Shown in pieces: positions 15,390 through 18,482 of a stretch of 33,087 bases of DNA; the stretch's first letter is position 1, and every line of letters begins with the position of its first letter. The notes under the pieces were generated by a model, which was given only the letters and a program-made list of their open reading frames with translations, did no database searches and had not been told where the DNA came from. Location: the NCBI GenBank assembly GCA_022774755.1, contig JALFLK010000003.1:1-33087 (forward strand), written 5' to 3'. This stretch comes from a bacterium. Its GTDB lineage: Bacteria; Bacillota; Clostridia; Oscillospirales; Acutalibacteraceae. Both the position numbers and the translations under genes were made by a program.

Positions 15390-15426
15390 TCACCCGAAGA
15401 GGAGCTGCCTTTTCGGGTGATTTTTT
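15390..15426 (+). terminator. Terminator of metA
   Basis: A 9-bp stem (TCACCCGAA / TTCGGGTGA) with a 13-base loop is followed by TTTTTT. Confidence 0.85.
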
Positions 15427-15507: not shown

Positions 15508-15683
15508 AAGGAAACACTGAATAAATCACATCATAAGATTGTTTGCACATCTTGCTTGCATCTTTTCCGTCAGCCTGACCAAAAAATCCTCGTAATGCGT
15601 CAGCATTACTGCGGTTTGTTTGTGCAACCTGACAAAAAATCTGACGGCGCAATATGCACAAACGATTTAATCAGTGTTTCCCT
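15508..15683. repeat. MITE-like inverted-repeat element, copy 2 (complete, 176 bp)
   Basis: The termini AAGGAAACACTGAATAAATC and, inverted, AGGGAAACACTGATTAAATC show it is a complete element. A possible 4-bp target duplication AACT lies at 15504-15507 and 15684-15687. The core can fold: CCGTCAG/CTGACGG outside, GTAATGC/GCATTAC inside. There is no transposase gene, so it would be moved in trans. It fills the gap between the metA terminator and the ligase promoter; the rest of that gap is AT-rich, and ATAAGTATAACT occurs on both sides of the element (15496 and 15695). Confidence 0.85.
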
Positions 15684-15713
15684 AACTATAATGGATAAGT
15701 ATAACTGACTTTG

Positions 15714-15742
15714 TTGAAAAATGCCGAAACTTCTGTTATAAT
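15714..15742 (+). promoter_or_regulatory. Sigma-A promoter of the ligase pair
   Basis: TTGAAA and TATAAT with a 17-bp spacer and an extended -10 TG. It begins 30 bp after repeat copy 2. Confidence 0.85.
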
Positions 15743-15781
15743 TTACAAAATGCAAATGATTACTGAAATTTGGAGGATGTT

Positions 15782-17023
15782 ATGAAAGATTATACGGAAT
15801 ATAACCTGAATTTTATGACAGAATACTTTGAAAAAGGCTGTAAAAATTCAAAGGACAGAAAAATCGGTATTGAAGTTGAAAATTTTTTGATTGAAAAAGA
15901 TACAAAGGAGCCTGTTTCTTTCTACGGCGACGGCGGTGTGGAGCAATTACTTGAAAGCTTATCCGAAAATTTTGAGTCCGAACACAGAGAAAACGGCAGA
16001 CTTTTGGGCTTAAGCGGAAAGGATTATTCACTTACCGTTGAACCCGGCGGACAGCTTGAGATTAGTATGATTCCCAAAAAATCTATTGAAGAAATCGAAA
16101 AAACATACAGGGAATTTTTAAACCTGATTTTACCCTTGCTTGAGAAAGAAAACTGCCTCCTTGTAAACTGCGGTTATCATCCGTCCTTTAAGTGCGGTGA
16201 TATTCCTCTTATCCCCAAAAACAGATACAGGGTTATGGACGATTATTTTAATGAGTTAGGCACCTGCGGGATGAATATGATGAGAGGCAGTGCCTCGGTT
16301 CAGGTGAATATAGACTACTGTTCCCCCCGGGACTTTAAAAGAAAATACAAGCTTGCAAATCTGCTTGCGCCTGTGATTTATCTTATCTGTGACAACAGCC
16401 CCGTTTTTGAGGGAGAGGAAAATCATAAGAATTGCGTTCGTGCAGGTGTATGGAGAAGCTTAGATAAAAAACGCTGTGCCTTGCCTGTTAAAAAAAGCTT
16501 TGATGATTTCGGCTTCAGAGAGTATGCCGAGTTTGTTTACAATTCGGTGCCGTTGTTTGACAGAGAAGAAAAAATCACATCATATACTATGACAAACCGT
16601 GAGTTTTATAAGGACGCACCCATAACAAAAGCCGATGTTGAGCATATGATTTCTATGGTTTTTCCCGATGTCAGGCTGAAAACCTACCTTGAACTGCGAA
16701 TGGCGGACAGTATGGAGCTTGAATATGCGCTTAGCTATGCATCTTTGGTGAAATCGCTGTTTTCCGATGACGATGCAATAGACCGTGGGCTGGGCGTTTT
16801 TGATTCTGAAAATCCCGACGATATAAACAACGCTGTTGATGCGGTGATGAAAAACGGCTTTGACGCCCAAATATACGGCAAGAGCGTTAAAACTATCATA
16901 AAGGAATTGTTCGGCATTGCAGAAGAAAAAGCCTCGGAGTCGGAGAAAAAATACCTTGCAGTTCTTGAAAATCTTGCTCTGCAATCTAAAAATCTGCGTA
17001 TGGTAAAAATCGGGAAACACTGA
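15782..17023 (+). CDS. Glutamate-cysteine ligase, plant/EgtA type (GCS2 family)
   Basis: Predicted to join glutamate by its side-chain carboxyl to cysteine, giving gamma-glutamylcysteine. The 413-residue protein has the GCS2 landmarks: GIEVENFL (29-36), LTVEPGGQLEIS (84-95), MMRGSASVQVNIDY followed by LLAPVIYLICDNSPVFEG, and YLELRMADSM near the C-terminus, each matching plant GSH1 motifs. The ATG at 15782 follows GGAGG by five bases; an upstream TTG is rejected. It is the first gene of a two-gene plus-strand unit. The last three codons (Gly-Lys-His) and the stop lie inside repeat copy 3, so the original C-terminus was probably replaced. The family also makes other gamma-glutamyl amides, so the substrate is likely rather than proven. 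Confidence 0.85.
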   Translation: MKDYTEYNLNFMTEYFEKGCKNSKDRKIGIEVENFLIEKDTKEPVSFYGDGGVEQLLESLSENFESEHRENGRLLGLSGKDYSLTVEPGGQLEISMIPKKSIEEIEKTYREFLNLILPLLEKENCLLVNCGYHPSFKCGDIPLIPKNRYRVMDDYFNELGTCGMNMMRGSASVQVNIDYCSPRDFKRKYKLANLLAPVIYLICDNSPVFEGEENHKNCVRAGVWRSLDKKRCALPVKKSFDDFGFREYAEFVYNSVPLFDREEKITSYTMTNREFYKDAPITKADVEHMISMVFPDVRLKTYLELRMADSMELEYALSYASLVKSLFSDDDAIDRGLGVFDSENPDDINNAVDAVMKNGFDAQIYGKSVKTIIKELFGIAEEKASESEKKYLAVLENLALQSKNLRMVKIGKH

Positions 17024-17130
17024 ATAAGTCACGCTGAGAGCTGTTTGCACATTTCGCCCGGCATTTTCCGCCGGTTGCCGAAAAAATCTGACGGCGCAAT
17101 ATGCACAAACGATTTAATCAGTATTTCACT
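17011..17130. repeat. MITE-like element, copy 3 (120 bp, internally different)
   Basis: The outer parts match copies 1 and 2: CGGGAAACACTGAATAAGTC at the left and GACGGCGCAATATGCACAAA at the right, ending CAGTATTTCACT. The middle is shorter and different (GCCCGGCATTTTCCGCCGG). It lies in the same orientation as copy 2, overlaps the stop codon of the ligase gene and ends 24 bp before the next ATG. A target duplication is not clear. Confidence 0.8.
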
Positions 17131-17153
17131 TAAATACAAGAAGGGTTTATTTA

Positions 17154-18482
17154 ATGAAAACATTTGACCGTGAATACGAAAAAACAGTCAGAGATAATTT
17201 TGAGGAATGTCAAAAGTCCTACAAGGCGCAAAGGGAGTATATTTTAAATTCCACAGCTCAGTATCACGGGGTTTTTGTAAAGACCCTGTGTATTCCGAAG
17301 ATATTTTCAAAAGAACAATGGGAGAGATTAAAATATATTGCGGAATTTACCCATAAAATTCTTGAAAAAACCATAAGACGCTATAAAAAGGACGAAAATT
17401 TCAGAGAAAAATTCGGCTTTGACAAAGAGCTTGAACAGCTTATTTTGCAGGAATCATATATAGATTCCCTGCTTCCCGTTGAAAGGGTTGACATTTTCTT
17501 TAACGAAGAAACAGGGGATTTTAAATTCTGCGAAATTAACACCGACGGCACCAGCGCAATGAACGAGGACAGGGAGCTTAATCTCGCCCTTAAAAAGACA
17601 TATGCCTTCGGCGAGTTTGCAAAGGCGCACAAAACGGGCAGTTTTGAGCTTTTTGACTCTTTTGTCAGGGAGTTTATGGATATATACGGCTCATATAAGT
17701 TTAAACGACCAAATCCGAGAGTTGCCATTGTTGATTTCCTTGATTTAGGCACATCAAACGAGTTTGAGCAGTTCAGACTTGCCTTTGAAAGAGCAGGGGT
17801 CAGTGCGGAAATCTGCGATATACGAAAGCTTGAATACAAAGACGGCGTGCTGTATTCGGAAAAGGGAAACAGAATCGACGCAATATACCGCCGTGCGGTT
17901 ACCTGCGACATTATGAACAACATTGATTCAATCCCCGATTTTATTAAGGCAGTAAAAAATCACGGCGTCTGCCTTATAGGTCCTTTGAGCACCCAGATTG
18001 TCCATTCAAAGGTGTTTTTTCAGGTGGTTTCCGACGAAAATAACCTGACCTACCTTGACAGCGACGAAATTGAGTTTGTAAAAAAGCATTTTCCCAAAAC
18101 CTATCGGCTCAAAGAAGATAATCCCCTGATTGACCTTAAGTCCATACTTGCAAATAAAGATAAATGGATAGTCAAACCTGTGGACTCCTACGGCTCAAGG
18201 GGTGTTTTTGCAGGAGTTGAGTGCAGTGACGGGGAGTGGAGTGAAAAACTAACCAAAGCCTTAGATGACGGAGAGCATATTATACAGGAATTCTGCAAGC
18301 CTTACGAAACTGTTAATATTGACTTTTCACAGGAAAATCCCCGATTTGAAAATTACAGCAATCTGTCGGGACTTTTTGTGTATAACGGTAAATTTGCAGG
18401 CGTGTATTCAAGGGTTTCAAAAACAGAGATTATCTCTACCCGTTACAGCGAAATCGCCCTTGCCACCATTACGGCAGAGTAA
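17154..18482 (+). CDS. ATP-grasp ligase of glutathionylspermidine-synthase type
   Basis: A 442-residue ATP-dependent carboxylate-amine ligase related to the C-terminal half of glutathionylspermidine synthase, a circularly permuted ATP-grasp fold. Seen in the sequence: EINTDGTSAMNEDREL (127-142), where acidic residues would bind Mg; a central domain AIVDFLDLGTSNEFEQFRLA; IDAIYRRAVTCDI (241-253); and the ATP-lid loop KPVDSYGSRG (341-350) followed by HIIQEFCKPYE. It is neither GshB nor a GshF C-terminal domain. It follows the glutamate-cysteine ligase after 130 bp, nearly all of it repeat copy 3, and shares its terminator. The likely job is to add an amine (glycine, another amino acid or a polyamine) to the carboxyl of gamma-glutamylcysteine. 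AAGAAGGG lies 11 bases upstream of the ATG. Confidence 0.78.
   Translation: MKTFDREYEKTVRDNFEECQKSYKAQREYILNSTAQYHGVFVKTLCIPKIFSKEQWERLKYIAEFTHKILEKTIRRYKKDENFREKFGFDKELEQLILQESYIDSLLPVERVDIFFNEETGDFKFCEINTDGTSAMNEDRELNLALKKTYAFGEFAKAHKTGSFELFDSFVREFMDIYGSYKFKRPNPRVAIVDFLDLGTSNEFEQFRLAFERAGVSAEICDIRKLEYKDGVLYSEKGNRIDAIYRRAVTCDIMNNIDSIPDFIKAVKNHGVCLIGPLSTQIVHSKVFFQVVSDENNLTYLDSDEIEFVKKHFPKTYRLKEDNPLIDLKSILANKDKWIVKPVDSYGSRGVFAGVECSDGEWSEKLTKALDDGEHIIQEFCKPYETVNIDFSQENPRFENYSNLSGLFVYNGKFAGVYSRVSKTEIISTRYSEIALATITAE

Follow-up and report, generated by a model that had tools for sequence, protein, structure and literature searches.

Strict anaerobic Clostridia are usually omitted from the map of glutathione makers, and glycine is the commonest acceptor solution in nature for completing thiols of this type. 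Eukaryotic glutathione and homoglutathione synthetases employ glycine or beta-alanine, the latter being used by the soybean homoglutathione synthetase. Further proteins of the same fold take other amines: YgiC and YjfC, annotated as peptide-spermidine ligases, use spermidine according to annotation and to passages of PMC12568646, while passages of the same article describe Cp1B as taking various L-amino acids. According to a survey, as excerpted from PMC6282198, gshA-gshB occurs in cyanobacteria, proteobacteria and eukaryotes and in a single actinobacterium. Here we describe the in silico analysis of a 33,087-nucleotide stretch (the window) of contig JALFLK010000003.1 from a member of the Acutalibacteraceae (assembly GCA_022774755.1), which carries a plant-type (GCS2) glutamate-cysteine ligase gene, whose product is referred to as GCS, followed by a gene for a circularly permuted ATP-grasp ligase, referred to as the ligase. 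On balance, we favour a two-step pathway in which GCS2 activity followed by that of the ligase yields glutathione. GCS would join glutamate and cysteine to form gamma-glutamylcysteine, whose cysteine carboxyl the ligase would activate with ATP and couple to an amine, most likely glycine; the product would be glutathione or a close analogue, as another small amino acid is possible.

The glutamate-cysteine ligase and the ATP-grasp ligase

The open reading frame list and the translation of the window establish that both frames are intact on the + strand. The GCS gene (15782..17023) starts with ATG at 15782, immediately preceded by GGAGG, and its stop codon occupies 17021-17023, thereby specifying a protein of 413 amino acids; a TTG at 15770 was given as an alternative start by the open reading frame tool. 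GCS passes the Pfam GCS2 model (PF04107) with 101 bits against a gathering cut-off of 21, while its best NCBIfam model is the plant-type TIGR01436 (E 7e-65), for which the score of 219.2 bits is under the cut-off of 463.15, and the EgtA model returned 121 bits against a cut-off of 371. As both NCBIfam scores are under their cut-offs, GCS represents a subfamily apart from plant-type glutamate-cysteine ligase (GCL) and EgtA. A profile of 21 relatives of GCS matched plant GCL structures (E 7.7e-76), and the 29 residues inspected were identical in 21 of 21 aligned rows. From these sequence features GCS is predicted to make gamma-glutamylcysteine.

The second gene (17154..18482, + strand) encodes the 442 amino acid ligase. 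Both motifs quoted for it in the earlier note, KPVDSYGSRG among them, are present, and the description given there of a complete plant-type GCS2 protein followed by an ATP-grasp protein (frames 15782-17023 and 17154-18482) was confirmed. Against Pfam the ligase scored 26.7 bits for GSP_synth (PF03738, version 19; gathering score 29.3), 24.7 bits of the 32 set for CP_ATPgrasp_2 and 20.5 of 23.1 for CP_ATPgrasp_1, and every NCBIfam model scored below its own cut-off; PF03738.20 is, however, assigned in a precomputed table to a 99% identical protein and to many relatives of the ligase. Databases name these relatives glutathionylspermidine synthase family or circularly permuted ATP-grasp protein, and some of approximately 514-523 amino acids (P0139, P0141, P0142, P0146, P0147 and others) also contain a PF05979 (DUF896) domain. 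The GshB family PF02955 was absent from the Pfam listing of the ligase up to E 1, and the eukaryotic glutathione synthetase family gave no Pfam match.

The structure model of the ligase (pLDDT 93.7) gave eukaryotic glutathione and homoglutathione synthetases as its top Foldseek matches, the soybean homoglutathione synthetase being one of these, and the fold match spans 412-420 of the 442 residues of this predicted model. The model also fits the fold of GspS, YgiC and YjfC, and Cp1B is a relative by both sequence and fold. A search of PDB sequences with the ligase detected no single-sequence similarity to eukaryotic glutathione synthetase. Residue equivalences were taken from profile alignments, not from structure coordinates; alignment A1 drew on 52 proteins of the 120 listed and on 31 of the 36 related loci, and alignment A2 comprised 20 of 21 adjacent GCS genes. 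The hhalign probability of the ligase profile was 22.9 against Gss alone, 0.03 against YgiC and YjfC alone and 92.0 against all three combined. Y245-R246-R247 of the ligase is invariant in 84 of 84 rows and in 240 of 240 listed relatives, as are the ATP-grasp catalytic residues among the relatives, and Y245-R247 aligns with the Tyr-x-Arg by which glutathione synthetase holds the gamma-glutamyl carboxylate, a motif missing from GspS, YgiC and YjfC. The ligase is predicted to be a gamma-glutamylcysteine:amine ligase of glutathione-synthetase type. With gamma-glutamylcysteine as donor and glycine as acceptor it would represent a glutathione synthetase of bacteria distinct from both GshB and the C-terminal half of GshF, with a fold nearer to that of the eukaryotic enzyme; the reaction is likely to be of a known type to which this ligase family has not previously been assigned.

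Conservation of the pair and supply of the probable donor

The ligase was present in 29 of the 391 class genomes sampled (approximately 7% of sampled species), a count reached from 31 matches after exclusion of G161 and G259 (weak, E 1e-10 to 4e-20, in frames of 844-865 amino acids), and it was present in 3 of 36 searched genomes of the window's genus, its own genome counted. A plant-type GCS2 protein occurs in 26 of the 29 ligase genomes and, according to the coordinates, directly precedes the ligase in 25 of these 26, one of which (G205) has both fused into a single protein of 864 amino acids; in the remaining genome, G209, the two lie on separate contigs. Within a further set of 36 related loci, located by peptide patterns, GCS adjoins the ligase in 21, in one of which (L022) it lies behind the ligase. 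The adjacency of GCS and ligase exceeds chance, and the suggestion in the earlier note that the pair is a conserved unit was thus borne out by the co-occurrence survey. Over 40 pairs, the distances of GCS and ligase correlate at 0.914, a value reached by none of 5000 permutations, to which shared species descent contributes; this set contains one genome twice (L034, L190) and also includes pairs that are almost identical, for example L008/L009. Searches of open-licence full texts brought to light no description of GCS and the ligase as a pair.

No third pathway gene recurred beside the pair among the neighbourhoods scanned, where subtilase, tRNA and DNA enzymes, DUF2007, an antibiotic-biosynthesis-monooxygenase (ABM), an ABC exporter (L034, L036) and a BMP-type ABC importer (L172, L173, and L187 by gene order only) were seen. 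In the Ezakiella loci L034 and L036 an ABC ATPase and a protein of 1175-1231 amino acids (an FtsX-type permease in L034) are encoded after the pair and possibly form an export unit. L172 and L173 (G156, G208) have GCS2 without the ligase and then the BMP-type importer, and L187 (G317), of the same family and with the ligase, has genes of similar size and order after the pair, this likeness being one of size and order only. The ABM gene, of 99 amino acids, lies just 5′ of the pair in L178 and of a lone ligase in L184, and is assigned 5′ of the pair in L181 by size and place.

The three ligase genomes without GCS2 (G397, G433, G446) all possess a PF04262 (GshA-type) ligase, as compared to 27 of 357 genomes lacking both the ligase and plant-type GCS2 (p 5e-4, uncorrected for phylogeny). 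A maker of gamma-glutamylcysteine, either GCS2 or GshA-type, was accordingly present in 29 of 29 ligase genomes versus 32 of 362 without the ligase. In these counts the 31 plant-type GCS2 proteins are 43 matches minus 12 weak ones (E 7e-5 to 8e-14), and one sub-cut-off match (G365) was excluded from 31 for PF04262; when the 12 weak GCS2 matches are kept, 44 of 362 ligase-less genomes have some GCL-like match, still against 29 of 29. That GshA takes the place of GCS2 points more strongly than any other finding to a need of the ligase for gamma-glutamylcysteine, which we regard as very likely to be its donor. Two considerations limit this conclusion, namely that the GshA-type ligase sits in a separate cluster in several genomes and that the comparison carries no correction for phylogeny.

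Were the donor a different one, the ligase would modify another peptide or metabolite and would accompany GCS on account of common regulation or of a longer pathway. Fifteen of the pattern-found loci lack an adjacent GCS and bear on this: PF04262 is present in nine of their genomes (G059, G061, G076, G082, G084, G086, G089, G090, G091) and GCS2 elsewhere in G077, whereas G078 and G079 have weak GCS2-like matches only and G060, G075 and G081, which may be incomplete, gave neither GCS2 nor PF04262, leaving 5 of 36 related-locus genomes without a clear gamma-glutamylcysteine maker. Five sampled genomes (G124, G156, G208, G254, G442) harbour plant-type GCS2 without the ligase, and the annotation of YgiC and YjfC as peptide-spermidine ligases also speaks for another substrate. 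The fusion of GCS2 with the ligase, the adjacency in 25 of 26 genomes and the GCS2-for-GshA exchange nevertheless tie the ligase to gamma-glutamylcysteine supply, and we consider another substrate to be quite improbable.

The window's genome yielded no match to GshB (PF02955) or to GshA/GshF (PF04262), and the ligase is likely to stand in for the usual glutathione synthetases, none of which was found there; the proposal of the earlier note that the second protein acts on gamma-glutamylcysteine is probably correct. Of 36 genomes searched with PF02955, 4 scored above the cut-off, with 61 bits in G124, which has GCS2 but no ligase, and 23-37 bits in G232, G360 and G156, while in several ligase-less genomes PF04262 lies in GshF-sized frames of 765-790 amino acids.

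A separate arrangement was observed in L168:3491-7749, L163:4444-7885, L165 and L170:3213-6712, where a lone GshA-type ligase adjoins a weakly GCS2-like protein of 459-472 amino acids; in L163, L168 and L170 a protein of 257-286 amino acids is added, which in L163 and L168 is a class-II glutamine amidotransferase that is distantly EgtC-like, and L160 has the GshA-type and the GCS2-like portions joined in one protein of 887 amino acids. This cluster possibly represents a further thiol or ergothioneine-like pathway.

The acceptor and the identity of the thiol

The A-loop (GGVAAG type), which closes on glycine in known synthetases, is not in the ligase sequence, and the acceptor therefore cannot be read from it. 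If gamma-glutamylcysteine is the donor, glycine is the simplest acceptor and, in our estimation, the probable one. The non-conserved glycine site also leaves room for coupling to another amino acid (beta-alanine, serine or glutamate), giving a new or homoglutathione-like thiol, as do the presence of the beta-alanine-using soybean enzyme among the best fold matches and the acceptance of various L-amino acids by Cp1B (passages of PMC12568646). No particular amino acid is indicated by the neighbouring genes, however. Glycine being also the most frequent choice in nature, we judge coupling to another amino acid to be unlikely.

The family name, glutathionylspermidine synthase, suggests instead a polyamine or diamine amide of gamma-glutamylcysteine or glutathione, and the acidic residues 194, 197 and 203 of the ligase lie close to the GspS spermidine site in profile alignments, so that such amines may still serve as acceptors. 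Strong matches to the spermidine synthase SpeE occur in 12 of the 29 ligase genomes, and SpeE is over cut-off in 216 of 391 sampled genomes, thus showing no enrichment, and NspC is strong in 4 of 29, one of these being without SpeE. The NspC cut-off was 409 bits, with G141 counted at 406.5 bits; ten ligase genomes gave NspC matches of E 1e-5 to 1e-15 that were left out of the count and are probably lysA-like decarboxylases. Strong SpeE and NspC are both missing from 16 of 29 ligase genomes, that of the window included; this result covers spermidine synthesis, and not polyamine import, putrescine, cadaverine or agmatine. The spermidine conjugate was demoted from lead reading to rival owing to these missing routes and, as the Pfam scan found no amidase domain on the ligase either, a polyamine amide has but a slim chance of being the product.

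The earlier note had left the third part of the product open between glycine, another amino acid and a polyamine; of these the polyamine is weakened and glycine favoured. Its suggestion of a non-glutathione product was not supported, since plain glutathione would be the simplest outcome and the structure search returned eukaryotic glutathione and homoglutathione synthetases as best matches. That Clostridia make a thiol other than glutathione is a tentative and somewhat doubtful proposition; it would be an amide of gamma-glutamylcysteine with a third part determined by the A-loop-less ligase, masked by the label glutathionylspermidine synthase in approximately 7% of the class species sampled (29 of 391).

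Local context and comparison with known systems

Upstream of GCS lies a full copy (15510..15685, + strand, approximately 176 bases) of a repeat with 43 matches in the window's genome (G000), near-identical full copies of which occur genome-wide, many at contig ends, including the start of the window's own contig (C10:1-142). A shortened copy (17013..17130, + strand) makes up most of the 130 bases between GCS and the ligase and supplies GCS with its final codons and stop. Spacing is tighter in many other genomes, where GCS and the ligase share 4 bases or are no more than approximately 80 bases apart, so that the larger distance in the window probably reflects a later insertion. A promoter-like site (15714..15742, + strand; TTGAAA-17-TATAAT with TG ahead of the second hexamer, 11 of 12 positions) precedes GCS, identified by consensus matching alone, by which 12 such sites were found against 8.0 expected; a pattern scan revealed no terminator-like site on the + strand between GCS and the ligase.

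Further upstream, a terminator-like hairpin of 13 pairs followed by a T run (15390..15420, + strand) lies 3′ of metA and sets it apart. The earlier note had seen a sulfur context in metA, which proved to be limited to close relatives: metA adjoins the ligase in just 3 of 36 related loci (L001-L003) and was rejected as a general partner. Within the window's genus, G003 (L001) and G009 (L003) both lack an adjacent GCS and have the ligase directly after metA. These two relatives raised the idea that GCS is a new arrival between two repeat copies, which is disfavoured; an old pair, into which the repeat was inserted at a later stage and from which the two relatives lost GCS, is favoured, as GCS and ligase are adjacent in distant genomes and the repeat runs into the GCS stop.

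If our interpretation is correct, 29 of the 391 species sampled from the class would possess a complete gamma-glutamylcysteine-based thiol pathway, which annotation would have missed because its last enzyme carries a polyamine name, and glutathione synthetase activity would have had a further origin in bacteria.

With regard to known systems, GCS matches plant GCL by model and profile, yet remains under the TIGR01436 and EgtA cut-offs. GspS (PF03738), YgiC and YjfC have W-K-T or F-K-L in place of the Tyr-x-Arg S-loop, and the ligase further differs from them in its GCS partner, in the frequent lack of spermidine routes and in having no detected amidase domain. GshB performs the same reaction as that predicted for the ligase. 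GshF carries both steps on one chain, as does the fusion in L076/L182, although the latter joins GCS2 to the ligase and GshF joins PF04262 to a GshF-type ATP-grasp domain; in the window's genome, with two separate genes and no PF04262 match, the GshF architecture was not found. Eukaryotic glutathione synthetase, unlike the ligase, has the glycine A-loop, and the two have no similarity detectable between single sequences and no shared Pfam match, while eukaryotic glutathione and homoglutathione synthetases have in common with the ligase the fold, an EINT-type metal motif, the Tyr-x-Arg of the S-loop and two ATP lysines.
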